Origin: a virus
Virus record (IMG/VR): IMGVR_UViG_3300020411_000578
Coordinates: 1 to 43,020 of that record
Length of the DNA stretch: 43,020 nucleotides
Direction: 5' to 3' (one strand)
Within the stretch, counting starts at the first letter, position 1. Each line of letters opens with the position of its first letter. Positions 426 to 43,020 of the stretch are shown here, in pieces. Position numbers and translations under genes: made by a program. The notes beneath the pieces are model-generated. The model was not told the origin of the DNA, searched no databases, and saw only the letters and a list, made by a program, of their open reading frames with translations.

Positions 426-2040
426 CCCCTCCATAGATGTAGTCTCTTAAGTATTCATAATGTGTAGGGCAGTCATCACTTTCAACAAAGTCATTGACTT
501 CTTTTGAGTATTTTGAATGACTGTTTGCAACAAATGTAAGTTCATCTGGATCACGGTCAAAATACCAATCTCGACCTAACATCATTCCTTGACCTGCTGC
601 TATGTAATTCATACCATTCATATTCACATCCATAGTTTGATCTAGGTCTAATGATGATCCAAGTCTTTCATAGTTATCATTAACTCTTACCAAACCATCA
701 AACTGCTCTGTCATATACTCGTTTCTTTGTGAACACCACCTCCAATAAGGGTTGTCTGTTCTTTGTGACAGAGCATAGTGCATAGCAACAAACTTACTAA
801 ATCCAATTACTTCTCTCTGTGCAGCGTAGTTATACCAGTTTCTTTCTATTTGTGTTACATATCCTCTTCTTCTTGATAATACATCTACCAGTCTGAGTAT
901 ATTTTCGTGTGTTGTTAACAGTCCCGTTGACTCTAATGGTTCAACAAATCCATAAGACAGTCCAATAGCAACAACATTCAAGTTCCACGCTTTTTCGTGA
1001 TACCCGTGTTTTATATCAATAGTTCCTACCTCATACTGTTCTGGAGATACACCATATTTTTGTTCTATCCACGTTTCAAACTCTTGTCTAGTCTCTGTTT
1101 CCATTGCAAATCGAGATGACCAACAGTATCCAACTCCGATCCTATTCCATAGTGGTATTGACCATAACCAACCATTTTCCGCTGCTTGACAGTCAGTCAC
1201 GTTGTGCATATGTTTTTCTCTTTCATCTTGTGTGAGATATGGTATGCGGGCAAAATATGCTTTATCGTTTGCTAAATCATTAAATTTAATGAACCTAGTA
1301 CCCATATACTCTTCTAATAGGACTGATTTAAAACCAGTACAGTCAATAAACAAGTCGCCAATAACACCTACAGTCCTTTTATCTTCATTTAATCTGACTG
1401 CTAACTGTTTAATATATCTGTTTGAGACTGCGGGTGAACCACCTGCGTTTATATCTTTCACCGATCCCCTGACTTCACCTCTAATATGTGTAAATCTATC
1501 ATCAAAGTTATCACAATAATCATCCCTTAGATACTCTGCAAACTTTTCAGCATCTAAATGATATGCAACGTCAGTTAACCAATTAAAGTTTCTCCATCTA
1601 TTATCTCTATTATCCCATTGTTTATTATGTTTTACTAATGCTGAGTTTTCTTTGTTAAAGAACTCTGCAAATGATTCTGGAGGATATTCTTCTGGTCTTT
1701 CTCTAGCAAGATCAAACCAATCTTTCATACCTTCTACAGTATCATTATAATCATATTTACCAAATGGATATTGAAATACTGTTCCTTTCTCTCTAAAATC
1801 TGTAAACTGAATACTATTCTTATATGTTGCATTACACTTAGGCATCCAGTCTTTATCTTCTAAGTCTAATGCTCTTAAATACTTGTTGAAATGACCTAAT
1901 GTAGATTCTCCTACACCCACTGTAGGTTTGTCTGATTCAATTAGAATTACATTTGTCCACGGGCAGCACTTTAACAATGCAGCAGCAGTCATCCAACCTG
2001 ATGAACCACCACCCACAATAACAATGTTTTCAACTTTCAT
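400..2040 (-). CDS. Flavin-dependent tryptophan-halogenase-like protein (copy 1)
   Basis: This 546-residue protein has the hallmarks of the PrnA/RebH family, which uses FADH2, O2 and halide to halogenate aromatic substrates. Visible features are an N-terminal FAD-binding motif GGGSSGWM (residues 10-17), the WxWxIP signature WLWSIP (291-296), a lysine in ATYK (K73) matching the catalytic lysine K79 of PrnA, and LESTG (369-373) matching the E346/S347 and halide-binding T348-G349 segment. All key residues are retained, so it is probably active. The length fits the family. It sits 2 bases after a second halogenase gene, so the two are co-transcribed. A cyanophage halogenase (VirX1 of phage Syn10) has been shown to iodinate substrates. 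The natural substrate here cannot be read from sequence. Confidence 0.9.
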   Translation of the reverse strand: MKVENIVIVGGGSSGWMTAAALLKCCPWTNVILIESDKPTVGVGESTLGHFNKYLRALDLEDKDWMPKCNATYKNSIQFTDFREKGTVFQYPFGKYDYNDTVEGMKDWFDLARERPEEYPPESFAEFFNKENSALVKHNKQWDNRDNRWRNFNWLTDVAYHLDAEKFAEYLRDDYCDNFDDRFTHIRGEVRGSVKDINAGGSPAVSNRYIKQLAVRLNEDKRTVGVIGDLFIDCTGFKSVLLEEYMGTRFIKFNDLANDKAYFARIPYLTQDEREKHMHNVTDCQAAENGWLWSIPLWNRIGVGYCWSSRFAMETETRQEFETWIEQKYGVSPEQYEVGTIDIKHGYHEKAWNLNVVAIGLSYGFVEPLESTGLLTTHENILRLVDVLSRRRGYVTQIERNWYNYAAQREVIGFSKFVAMHYALSQRTDNPYWRWCSQRNEYMTEQFDGLVRVNDNYERLGSSLDLDQTMDVNMNGMNYIAAGQGMMLGRDWYFDRDPDELTFVANSHSKYSKEVNDFVESDDCPTHYEYLRDYIYGGDELRAELI

Positions 2041-4101: not shown

Positions 4102-4902
4102 TTATTTGTAGTTAATAACAGTAACAACACCATACTTACCGTTTGAACCACGGAAACTATGGAAGTGTCCACCTGACCCACCTGCACCATACGCTGCGTG
4201 ATCTTGATGATTGTGTGAGAAGTTACCACCGTTTGGCCAACCTCCTGATACAGCACCACCAAAGTGAGAAGAACCTCCGACTCCTCCACCACCACCGTGG
4301 TGTGACTGTCCTCCTCCACCCCAAACATTGAGGTCTCCACCAGAACCATTACGCCCTAGTCCACCTGAGTGTTGGTTGTTTCTATTAGCACCGTGTCCAC
4401 CACCTGCTGATAGATATGGTCCAAATGATGATGAACCACCATCACCACCGTGTCCGAAGTACCAAGTACCTCCTCCACCACCACCAACTGTGATACCAAC
4501 TGAAGATATATTTACTACATTCAACACACGTTCTGAATATCCACCCGCTGCTCCTGATTCTCCGTGACCTGACGCTCCACCGCCACCACCTTGAACTCTG
4601 ATATGTATATACTTAACACCACTTGGTCTATTCCAAGTTCCGTTACCTGTCCATACCTGTAGGGATGAGATATTTTCTGAACTAACATCAGTCCAACTCA
4701 TAGATGAACCGTTTGTAGTTAAAAACTTACCATTTTGACCACTAACAGAGGGAACGATCTGACTGGATGAACCAGACATAGTTCCATTAATAGTGATGTT
4801 GCTAACTGTCAAATTTCCGTTAGCAGTGATGTTACCTGACGCAAGTGTAAATCCACCAATGCCTGACAGGTCTCTAATAGATGCAACTTTAAGGGTACTC
4901 AT
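4102..4902 (-). CDS. Glycine-rich tail-fibre tip / adhesin-like protein
   Basis: This is a 266-residue protein. Residues 1-75 look like a fibre-shaft start (LSGIGGFTLASGNITANGN; repeated short beta-type segments). The motif VWTGNGTWNRPSGVKYIHIRVQ (about 82-103) introduces a long tail with many runs of 4-6 glycines separated by short Asn/Ser/His loops. Poly-glycine blocks of this kind form sandwiched polyglycine helices in the receptor-binding gp38 adhesins of T2/T6-type phages, with variable loops contacting the host. Homology to gp38 is not claimed; only the architecture is alike. Histidines are frequent in the loops. A late promoter box lies 25 bases upstream. A host-recognition tip is the likely role (inference). 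Confidence 0.75.
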   Translation of the reverse strand: MSTLKVASIRDLSGIGGFTLASGNITANGNLTVSNITINGTMSGSSSQIVPSVSGQNGKFLTTNGSSMSWTDVSSENISSLQVWTGNGTWNRPSGVKYIHIRVQGGGGGASGHGESGAAGGYSERVLNVVNISSVGITVGGGGGGTWYFGHGGDGGSSSFGPYLSAGGGHGANRNNQHSGGLGRNGSGGDLNVWGGGGQSHHGGGGGVGGSSHFGGAVSGGWPNGGNFSHNHQDHAAYGAGGSGGHFHSFRGSNGKYGVVTVINYK

Positions 4903-4926
4903 TTTGCCTGTTTAATTTCCTAATGT

Positions 4927-4934
4927 TATTTATA
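4927..4934 (-). promoter_or_regulatory. T4-type late promoter box
   Basis: An exact TATAAATA octamer reads on the minus strand (TATTTATA on the plus strand), 25 bases upstream of the glycine-rich fibre gene start at 4902. It matches the T4 late promoter -10 element, recognised by gp55 with gp33 and the sliding clamp. The phage encodes gp33 at 31982-32227. Confidence 0.65.
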
Positions 4935-4945
4935 CCTTAAGACGG

Positions 4946-5800
4946 TTAACTATAATTGTGTACGTGTATTAGTACGAGATAAGGATTACCAGTTCCAGGG
5001 ATTTCGTGGTTATGAATCGAAATGTCTGCTCTTTGGATAGTTCCACTTGCACCACTACCATTACTATAATATACGTTACAACCGTAACCATTTACAGTCC
5101 ACCCAGTAGGTGTACCTGTACCACCCTCAAAACGGGTATATACTGTCATTAAGGTTGCTTTCAATGTGTTATCAACTGGTGCATTTGATAGATTGATAGT
5201 GTAGTTTCCACCACCTGTCTTTCTAACAAAAATATTACCACTGTTGTTCCAGTTATGGTTTACCGTACCAGATGTCTGATAGTAGTAAATATGTTCCTGT
5301 AAACCTGCGTGTGATAATGTCCCAGTGAATGTACCGTGACCAGATTCTATATCTTGGAATTGTGCGAAAGACAAATCATCGTCACCGATCATAGTCCAAG
5401 TTGCACCGTTCTCAATAGTTACAGTATATCCATTATTAATCTGTATCGGACCTGCTGAAAAACCGTTAGTAAACTCTACTCCACCATTGAATGAAGGTCC
5501 AACAGTGATATTTTCTTCTATGTTTGTTCCGTTGGTTCTAATAATTGAGTTTTCACCAACAGAAGGACCACCACCACCTACATCATCCCAACCTGGGTTT
5601 CCTGCGTTGGCATCTTGCAAATAAATTTGTGCCTGATCTTCAGTCGTATTATAAACTAAAGTACCATAAGCAGGTGTACCAAGTGCATTAATCTGCGATT
5701 GGTTCAACGGTGGAAGATTTAACTGTTCTGATATAGACCAAGCAGTTACAAGACCTCTCGTACTTGCCTGTATCTGATTACCATTAATCTTTGTGGTCAT
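4946..5800 (-). CDS. Tail-fibre-like virion protein
   Basis: This is a 284-residue protein rich in Asn, Gly, Thr and Ser with beta-type composition. The N-terminal part has ALGTPAYGTLVYNTTEDQ and then IYLQDANAGNPGWDDV, the form of the 'text-like' shaft modules at the start of many phage tail fibres. The middle has a GATWTMIGDDDLSF segment, and the end is compact and Tyr/Asn-rich. It lies between the 1191-residue appendage protein and the glycine-rich tip, so it may be a connecting fibre section (inference). A near-match to the late box (TCTAAATA) sits about 22 bases upstream. Confidence 0.7.
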   Translation of the reverse strand: MTTKINGNQIQASTRGLVTAWSISEQLNLPPLNQSQINALGTPAYGTLVYNTTEDQAQIYLQDANAGNPGWDDVGGGGPSVGENSIIRTNGTNIEENITVGPSFNGGVEFTNGFSAGPIQINNGYTVTIENGATWTMIGDDDLSFAQFQDIESGHGTFTGTLSHAGLQEHIYYYQTSGTVNHNWNNSGNIFVRKTGGGNYTINLSNAPVDNTLKATLMTVYTRFEGGTGTPTGWTVNGYGCNVYYSNGSGASGTIQRADISIHNHEIPGTGNPYLVLIHVHNYS

Positions 5801-41870: not shown

Positions 41871-42065
41871 TTATTTATTAAGGTATGTAGGTGGTATATG
41901 ATGATCATTCCAATGTCTAATGTTACCACCAACAATAAAACAGTTTGTGATTATGAGTTGTAAAAAGATAAAGGTTCTTATCATAGCAATGATGTCTGCT
42001 TCTCTATCGTTCTTACCTGATTTGTCTCCGAGTGCCTTTGCCCAGATTCTCCAAAGTTTTTTCAT
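41871..42065 (-). CDS. Small membrane protein, conserved in cyanophages
   Basis: This is a 64-residue protein. It starts MKKLWRIWAKALGDKSGKND, then READIIAMIRTFIFLQLIIT and FIVGGNIRHWNDHH. One transmembrane segment is likely at about 29-47. The pattern 'W..WAKA.G.KSG..D.E.D..A.IRT.IF' appears in many cyanophages (recollection). Function is unknown. ATGA overlap links it to the 34-codon ORF before it. It may be the first solidly supported gene of the transcript that continues leftwards. Confidence 0.7.
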   Translation of the reverse strand: MKKLWRIWAKALGDKSGKNDREADIIAMIRTFIFLQLIITNCFIVGGNIRHWNDHHIPPTYLNK

Positions 42066-42166
42066 CCGTATAAATGTACGTTATAAGTTTTTCTAGATGG
42101 AGGATACTTTGGTTTCCTCTGCTTGACCGCTTTGTAAATGCGTAGTAGTAGTTCTGTATTTACCAT
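42062..42166 (-). CDS. Very small basic protein (34 aa), possibly leaderless
   Basis: ATG at 42166 to TGA at 42062-42064, 34 residues: MVNTELLLRIYKAVKQRKPK, then YPPSRKTYNVHLYG. Basic and Tyr-rich. Its stop overlaps the next gene's ATG (ATGA), as seen for real genes here. No Shine-Dalgarno is visible: a TATAAT hexamer lies only 8-13 bases upstream of the ATG, so an mRNA started there would be leaderless or nearly so. It might instead be only the 5' leader of the next gene. Confidence 0.45.
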   Translation of the reverse strand: MVNTELLLRIYKAVKQRKPKYPPSRKTYNVHLYG

Positions 42167-42173
42167 AGAATAT

Positions 42174-42179
42174 ATTATA
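42174..42179 (-). promoter_or_regulatory. Possible -10 box for the leftward small-gene transcript
   Basis: TATAAT on the minus strand directly after the ncRNA terminator, 8 bases upstream of the ATG at 42166. A -35 would lie inside the terminator stem (TTGCAG, spacing 15), so it is weak by sequence. An extended AT-rich region supports it slightly. Confidence 0.35.
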
Positions 42180-42183
42180 ACAT

Positions 42184-42226
42184 AAAAAAAGGACCTGCAA
42201 AACACCAATAAAGCAGATCCTTTTTT
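42184..42226 (-). terminator. Bidirectional-type terminator after the structured RNA
   Basis: On the minus strand the stem GGATCTGC / GCAGGTCC (one mismatched pair) with a loop of 14 bases is flanked by an A run before and seven T's after (to 42184). It is also T-rich on the opposite side, so it could act in both directions. It ends the region that follows the TTGACA/TATATT promoter. Confidence 0.8.
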
Positions 42227-42421
42227 AAGATTGAAAGGGAGGTTGGATTCCTGTGTACCAACAAATAACGGGCATTACTACAGAAGTAAAATACGTTATT
42301 GCCTGAGTCCTACTTGGTTGAGTAGTTCTGCCATTCCTGACAGCGAGCACCACCTCTGACTCATCACCTTAACTAGCGGTTGCCAGTAAGTTTATTCGGT
42401 CACTCCCACGTCGCGTCCGAC
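42184..42421 (-). ncRNA. Putative stand-alone structured non-coding RNA (about 238 nt)
   Basis: A minus-strand segment with its own consensus promoter upstream and a rho-independent terminator at its end holds no convincing protein gene. Stems in order (5' to 3'): UCGG/CCGA; CUU-ACUGGC / GCUAGU-U-AAG with loop AACC (9 bp, one bulge, 42369-42391 region); a junction closed by UGAGUC/GACUCA that encloses hairpins CUGUC/GGCAG and CUACU/AGUAG; a long hairpin AAUAACG/CGUUAUU with inner UUACU/AGUAA; GUUGG/CCAAC; then the terminator. All three frames hold only short ORFs (the longest ATG one is 22 codons). It starts just after psbA and its terminator. Function is unknown; it is not the antisense psbA RNA CfrI, which runs the other way. 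Confidence 0.65.
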
Positions 42422-42427
42422 TCTATT

Positions 42428-42456
42428 AATATAGCAGACTCGTCACAGGTTGTCAA
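42428..42456 (-). promoter_or_regulatory. Consensus sigma-70-type promoter for the structured RNA
   Basis: TTGACA (42451-42456) and TATATT (42428-42433) are separated by exactly 17 bases on the minus strand. The likely transcription start is at about 42421. This is the best -35/-10 pair that I found in the window, and it points into a region without a gene. The psbA terminator at 42558-42586 separates it from psbA transcription. Confidence 0.8.
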
Positions 42457-42557: not shown

Positions 42558-42586
42558 AAAAAAAGACCCCTACTATGTAGAGGTCT
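42558..42586 (-). terminator. psbA rho-independent terminator
   Basis: On the minus strand AGACCTCTAC and GTAGGGGTCT pair (10 bp with one mismatch, loop ATA) and are followed by seven T's. It lies 21 bases after the psbA stop at 42607. The hairpin would end psbA transcription before the RNA promoter at 42428-42456. Confidence 0.88.
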
Positions 42587-42606: not shown

Positions 42607-43020
42607 TTATCCGATTGAAGGTGCTGTTAAAGCAACTTCTGTAGTCTCAGCAGATGCTAAGTCTAATGGGAAGTTGTGAGCGTTACGCTCGTGCATTACT
42701 TCCATACCTAGGTTTGCTCTGTTAAGAACGTCACCCCATGTAGGAACAATCTTACCGTTTGCATCTACAACTGATTGGTTGAAGTTGAAACCGTTAAGGT
42801 TGAATGCCATTGTGCATATACCCATGGATGTTAACCATACGCATACAACTGGGAATACTGCTAGGAAGAAGTGAAGACTTCTTGAGTTGTTGAATGAAGC
42901 ATACTGGAAGATAAGACGACCAAAGTAACCGTGTGCTGCTACTATGTTGTATGTTTCTTCTTCTTGTCCAAATTTATATCCGTAGTTTTGACTCTCGGTT
43001 TCTGTTGTCTCCTTAATTAA
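42607..43020 (-). CDS. psbA: Photosystem II D1 protein, C-terminal part (5' end outside the window)
   Basis: The last 137 residues of D1 are open to the window edge: [40 protein letters not shown] (with the following [11 protein letters not shown] holding S264 and H272), [38 protein letters not shown]332, E333, D342 and A344 ligands of the Mn cluster are intact. After A344 comes a 15-residue extension ([15 protein letters not shown]), normally removed by CtpA. Phage psbA keeps D1 supplied while host expression is shut off. The N-terminal part lies beyond 43020. Residues such as [14 protein letters not shown] differ from common host versions. Confidence 0.97.

Follow-up and report, generated by a model that had tools for sequence, protein, structure and literature searches.

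Several structured RNAs have been described from phages, and the closest to the one analysed here is manA. It was found in 2010 in marine metagenomes, in cyanophages and as two gammaproteobacterial copies, and the authors of that survey were certain that it is an RNA and that it is cis-regulatory, and judged a riboswitch probable (Weinberg et al. 2010, PMC2864571). Rfam files it as RF01745 under the type Cis-reg, an article on Rfam 14 lists 48 significant base pairs in its source alignment (PMC7779021), and a genome report on cyanophage S-CREM1 enters its manA copy as cis-regulatory, with a role still to be verified (PMC9964418). By title and abstract, none of the papers among the matches listed presents manA as a stand-alone RNA. 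The glutamine riboswitch (RF01739) and wcaG (RF01761) are likewise structured cyanophage RNAs with one copy where found, but they belong to different families, and a ligand is known for the glutamine riboswitch. GOLLD and ROOL are structured phage RNAs frequently encoded close to tRNA islands, with a role that is likewise unsettled, but are far larger (a 659-nt ROOL and many GOLLD RNAs above 800 nt; PMC12286853). Similarly, manA occurs inside phage tRNA arrays, and cmscan gave no GOLLD or ROOL match in the loci scanned or in the window, by which we mean the whole stretch of DNA analysed, a virus record of 43,020 bases. The tRNA cluster of phage T4 includes the stable RNAs C and D, non-tRNA RNAs of unknown function inside the array, and manA is like them, by description alone, in being a non-tRNA RNA in a tRNA array.

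Results

The window fits a T4-like cyanophage, because its genes match psbA, an exonuclease, a thioredoxin-domain protein and a 2OG oxygenase and because its manA resembles cyanophage manA copies at 69–88% identity (blastn). An earlier note on this DNA, made from the sequence alone, had described a highly structured RNA of no recognised family beside psbA. The family is in fact a published one. The RNA (42232–42422, minus strand) matches RF01745 in cmscan over its full length (model positions 1–192 of 192) with 183.7 bits against a cut-off of 55.2 and an E-value of 9.7e-50; it is manA RNA, and this identity is secure. It was the only Rfam family that cmscan found in the window, and ARAGORN called 0 genes, which agrees with the earlier view that the RNA is not a tRNA, tmRNA, 6S RNA or RNase P RNA. 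The ORFs listed inside it are 42 aa each. In other phages, hypothetical CDSs are annotated over manA and are probably not genes: P-HM1 (L122, 2965–3141), P-SSM4 (L123, 3055–3228), S-SSM5 (L129, 3005–3211), P-HM2 (L131, 3056–3230) and S-TIM4 (L136, 3135–3326).

The whole 239-nt RNA folds with −75 kcal/mol (z −2.84; 1/200 shuffles as stable), so that the description as highly structured holds. Its helices are supported by covariation in an alignment of 31 homologues with 49 pairs, where 94.1% of cells are paired, versus 36.0–46.4% when the partners are slid, and 30/49 pairs vary on both sides, a level reached by 0/500 shuffles. Covariation, which the earlier note had proposed as a check, is therefore present. 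Helix 9 is weak (62.6% paired in this alignment), and a misalignment kept the 5′ hairpin out of the count. The closing helix GGGAG/CUCCC, overlooked earlier but present in the Rfam structure, does not vary among the 31 aligned sequences, in part because most loci came from a pattern containing GGGAG; P-HM1 and MED4-213 have GGGUG/CACCC there, with pairing kept. Some of the 52 invariant columns among the 31 sequences are likewise fixed by the search pattern. Two of the stems folded by eye, the UGAGUC/GACUCA junction and the two-part hairpin AAUAACG/CGUUAUU, are right by the Rfam structure. The third, a 9-bp stem with an AACC loop, has 9 pairs, interrupted by a bulge, in the minimum-energy fold but 6 bp in the Rfam structure. 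A chance fold next to a chance promoter, with no RNA gene, would draw on the promoter-like sites that, taken alone, are common in this AT-rich stretch; it is refuted by the E-value of the Rfam match, by the pairs changed on both sides and by the paired share against slid partners, and we give it practically no weight.

Related loci came from a core pattern, which gave at least 120 IMG/VR loci, and from blastn, which gave 39 phage records, 15 of them taken with their annotation. In bacteria, RF01745 was matched in 1/369 genomes from the class of a gammaproteobacterial MAG and in 1/200 from the genus of a Prochlorococcus genome; these are the two contigs already found, and the stricter filters of that search lose weak matches.

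The layout of the window copy is compact. Upstream lies the 3′ part of psbA (D1; 42607–43020, minus strand; PHROG 182, E 5.2e-68), cut by the window end, and the psbA terminator (42564–42586, minus strand) isolates the manA unit from it, as the earlier note had said. The sigma-70 promoter reported there, TTGACA-17-TATATT, is present on the minus strand at 42428–42456, with 11/12 matches, a TG before the −10 box and a predicted start near 42421. The rho-independent terminator reported at the end of the ~238-nt region is also found (42184–42226, minus strand), as a 14-bp hairpin with a U-run separate from the manA fold. From these promoter and terminator signals, a discrete RNA of ~238 nt is predicted. 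A further promoter-like site, TTTGCA-16-TATAAT (42174–42201, minus strand; 10/12 matches), overlaps the terminator of manA and may be where the next transcription unit starts. The ORFs downstream of it, all beyond manA, are of 34 aa (42062–42166, minus strand), 64 aa (41871–42065, minus strand; PHROG 1679) and 1051 aa, the last two matching PHROGs of unknown function.

A nearly identical copy of this arrangement, from psbA through the 34-aa ORF and with the same layout, is found in a contig filed as a Euryarchaeota MAG (L137; PADI01000053.1, 1–740), probably a misbinned phage contig. Nearly all of the 580 aligned bases outside the promoter spacer are identical, the terminator sequence is the same and the 34-aa ORF is 97% identical. 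Both promoter hexamers are also identical, and the spacer (42434–42450) differs at 7/17 bases by a count made by eye.

By count alone, the window promoter is within chance, with 13 promoter-like sites in the 5 kb around it versus a mean of 20.6 in shuffles. It becomes convincing because the homologues have one too: a sigma-70 promoter with 11–12/12 matches lies just upstream of manA in 115/125 loci among the matches listed, versus 15/675 random positions. This count leaves out 10/135 loci, namely eight too near a contig end and those of P-HM1 (L122) and MED4-213 (L135), both of which do have the promoter. Three loci score below 9/12. Two of them (L113 and L089) follow a tRNA, and the sequence upstream of the third (L042) is tRNA-like by eye, without a program call. 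In a separate observation, the −35 box TTGACA lies inside a terminator-like hairpin upstream of manA in 51/122 loci among the matches listed (for example L101, L068 and L008), so that a single short sequence may terminate the upstream transcript and also initiate the one after it.

In loci that were selected for a nearby tRNA through a directed search and ARAGORN, cmscan places the tRNA 0–2 nt from the manA 5′ end in 13/14 cases. The 5′ end of manA is thus a defined end, set by a promoter or by the end of an upstream tRNA. In L113, L252, L311 and L263, manA sits between two tRNAs, with no gap or overlap exceeding 2 nt (cmscan), and the same order is found in phages RB11-B, RN05-S, S-H68 and ACG-2014f, where a tRNA ends at 2567, manA spans 2569–2779 (2778 in RN05-S) and another tRNA begins at 2781. 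At such loci, processing of the tRNAs on both sides would release manA as a free RNA. Synechococcus phages RB11-B and RN05-S also have gaps of about 200–450 nt between tRNA genes without an Rfam match (L341, 2929–3135; L343, 3218–3666 and 4927–5134), which may hold other RNAs, and in RN05-S a 195-nt CDS annotated as ‘tail fiber’ and flanked by tRNAs looks doubtful.

Folded alone, the 14-bp hairpin of the window terminator reaches −18 kcal/mol (z −4.91; 0/200 shuffles as stable); it is absent from a simple scan because that scan allows loops of 3–8 nt and its loop has 14 nt. Competing folds were assessed by a penalty on the hairpin pairs, taking as a ratio the share of the hairpin's own energy that is lost if it is barred from forming. 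Three toy RNAs with a built-in competitor, which are toys only, gave ratios of 0.01–0.23. Removing the window terminator costs 14.0 of its own 15.7 kcal/mol; this ratio of 0.89 is far from the toys, so that the window copy gives no sign of an attenuator switch.

In many relatives, manA is followed by a small hairpin, here called ELEM, with a stem RACC/GGUY, an internal loop UAAGAUGCA/GGGCAGA and a second stem such as ACUC/GAGU; with its asymmetric internal loop and tandem GA, we take it by consensus to be kink-turn-like. Among the matches listed, 131/133 ELEM copies in 340 loci lie 6–19 nt after manA (for example L030, 4578–4609, minus strand), and the remaining two lie at the edge of a contig, where L340, one of the two, retains a manA tail. 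Of these 133, 29 are in loci from the manA searches and the others came from searches for ELEM itself. The stems covary, with GC in 112 and AT in 21 copies at one pair; because the pattern itself prescribed the loop letters, the counts do not show loop conservation. A cmscan of L011 at E-values up to 10 gave only Rfam matches far below their cut-offs. ELEM is absent from the window copy. Seen only directly after manA, it looks new. By eye, its stem strand AGACC is the complement of a GGUCU in manA; L142 alters the manA side and keeps AGACC.

At 121 loci among the matches listed, the feature that comes next after manA was counted: an ORF within 70 nt (56 loci), a terminator (19), ELEM with a U-run (19), ELEM without a U-run (9), a tRNA (7) or something else (11). 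Thus, a terminator or ELEM with a U-run comes directly after manA in 38/121 loci, and 56/121 copies lead into a same-strand ORF with no terminator called. The count takes loci with at least 80 nt of 3′ sequence, one further locus falling below this, and leaves out 13/135, of which 11 were cut short or unplaceable and two were those of P-HM1 (L122) and MED4-213 (L135), missed as the pattern demanded GGGAG or GAGAG; a terminator follows manA in both. A few assignments are to be corrected: L113 (counted as an ORF) and L033 (as other) then proved to be followed by a tRNA in cmscan, and L053, also counted as an ORF, likely has a terminator. Over the 38 loci with a terminator or ELEM with a U-run, window included, the energy ratios range from 0.00 to 0.94, with medians of 0.53 in the 19 terminator loci and 0.62 in the 19 ELEM loci. 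In 9/38 the ratio is at most 0.26, near the toy controls, and a competing or attenuator fold is therefore possible in those relatives.

These counts bear on the published view, in which manA would be a cis-acting leader, most likely a riboswitch, for the gene or operon just behind it. On this view, the window copy would be an attenuator whose terminator governs the 34-, 64- and 1051-aa genes. It is a serious possibility, which we place second. It has on its side the Rfam type, the verdict of the family's authors (Weinberg et al. 2010, PMC2864571), the 56/121 loci with an ORF start within 70 nt, the invariant columns, fixed in part by the search pattern, and the possible competing folds in 9/38 loci. 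In addition, an opposite-strand gene lies downstream of manA in 0/96 loci and upstream in 15/88 (longest-ORF measure). Set against the other gaps after a plus-strand gene, of which 9/75 are convergent, the 96/96 same-strand downstream genes indicate that manA prefers operon fronts, as a leader would, although the loci are related and the counts therefore overstate independence. The neighbours in relatives are gp32, talC, a phosphomannomutase-like gene, mannose-6-P isomerase, Hsp20, PurS, a carbamoyltransferase and tRNA genes. Several of these (transaldolase, phosphomannomutase-like and mannose-6-P isomerase) are sugar-phosphate related, a point in favour of a riboswitch, but gp32, Hsp20, PurS and the tRNAs are unrelated, and tRNA genes directly 3′ of manA would be cut off by processing. 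The window terminator without a strong competitor also speaks against a leader. talC, gp32, the phosphomannomutase-like gene and DUF6561 are each seen both with and without an intervening hairpin or tRNA after manA.

The published description, which stands outside the covariance model, puts manA in the 5′ UTR of a mannose/fructose, nucleotide, chaperone or photosynthesis gene. Relatives of the window copy do have neighbours of these kinds; in the window, a terminator follows manA and the next ORFs match no characterised function. The earlier suggestion of a role on host or phage photosynthesis genes was rejected as unsupported: the neighbours vary widely, and a position close to psbA is just one of many that manA takes.

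Its place at the 5′ end, codirectional with what follows, would also suit a general 5′-terminal element, one that guards the RNA that follows against host RNases or alters the polymerase during elongation so that terminators just downstream are read through. The put RNA of phage HK022 acts in the latter way, and terminators do lie between manA and the gene in many loci. However, the conservation seems, in our judgement, more than a plain 5′ shield needs, the tRNA-flanked copies have no message to protect and a single copy per genome would serve one operon only. We consider such an element improbable.

P-HM1 and P-HM2, described in their genome report as highly syntenic phages from the same water sample and the same host (PMC3037559), hold one manA copy each, at different sites, and in each the other site is empty. 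P-HM1 and MED4-213 have promoter, manA and terminator after gp23, where P-HM2 has a simple terminator only. In P-HM2, manA (4771–4969) lies between the gp32 promoter and gp32; in P-HM1 this promoter and the start of the gene are the same, but manA is absent. That sister phages carry manA at different genes, and that gp32 of P-HM1 keeps its promoter without it, speaks against a leader of the following gene. L054 and the window have in common about 130 nt of upstream sequence plus manA and share neither outer flank, as if this stretch had moved as one cassette.

manA was found once per genome in 15/15 records and in 23/25 of a second set, where the two misses are not manA loci. Its copy number does not discriminate between the readings because, where found, the glutamine riboswitch (10/18 records, 3 of these over the cut-off) and wcaG (3/18, 2 of these over the cut-off) also occur once per phage. 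Single copy as proof of action in trans was dropped, as these two RNAs behave alike. In L057, two glutamine riboswitch matches (1194–1242 and 1707–1802, minus strand) flank a same-strand manA.

Discussion

Judged by its sequence, the window RNA is a further member of a described family, in a free-standing layout. Like other manA RNAs, it has the same helices over the full length, a T4-like cyanophage setting and relatives with neighbours of the published kinds; unlike the usual filing of the family, it has its own promoter and terminator, between psbA and small ORFs of no assigned function. The earlier description as a stand-alone RNA is thus supported for the layout here and in some relatives, but the RNA belongs to a described family that is filed as cis-regulatory.

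We lean towards manA working by itself, mainly as a free RNA, with its attachment to a neighbouring gene often incidental, and hold this tentatively, at somewhat less than an even chance; a cis-acting switch comes after it and a general 5′ element third, the functional steps being inferred in each case. In the window, transcription by host sigma-70 RNA polymerase would begin with the manA 5′ hairpin and end at the intrinsic terminator, ahead of the next promoter. The folded RNA itself would then do the work, on some host or phage target, as the arrangement of its relatives leads us to propose. This preference draws on the window layout (own promoter, strong fold and own terminator, repeated in L137), on a terminator without a strong competitor (0.89 versus 0.01–0.23 in the toys), on the defined 5′ end together with the tRNA-flanked copies and the terminator or ELEM with a U-run in 38/121 loci, and on the exchange of sites between P-HM1/MED4-213 and P-HM2, with the gp23 site of P-HM2 and the gp32 site of P-HM1 empty. 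Against a free RNA count the 96/96 same-strand downstream genes, the 56/121 copies leading into an ORF without a called terminator, the cis-regulatory and riboswitch verdict of the family's authors and the possible attenuator folds in 9/38.

The way in which the relatives carry manA suggests that it may be an RNA in its own right, not only a switch on the following gene. With slightly less confidence, we propose that its filing could be wrong or half right, and that manA could be a relocatable, one-per-genome, free-acting RNA gene of T4-like cyanophages, whose 5′ end would be given by a host-type promoter or an upstream tRNA and whose 3′ end by a terminator, a downstream tRNA or a dedicated hairpin known from no other setting here.

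From a biological perspective, manA is a well-supported orphan family among marine RNAs, and its carriers are phages that infect Prochlorococcus and Synechococcus. The tRNA-flanked copies, the exchange between P-HM1 and P-HM2 and the published RNA-seq of MED4 infected with P-HM2, for which the methods state that intergenic reads were counted (PMC5082946), make the idea of a free RNA directly testable. If manA does act as a free RNA, the question would shift from which metabolite it senses to which host or phage molecule it binds.
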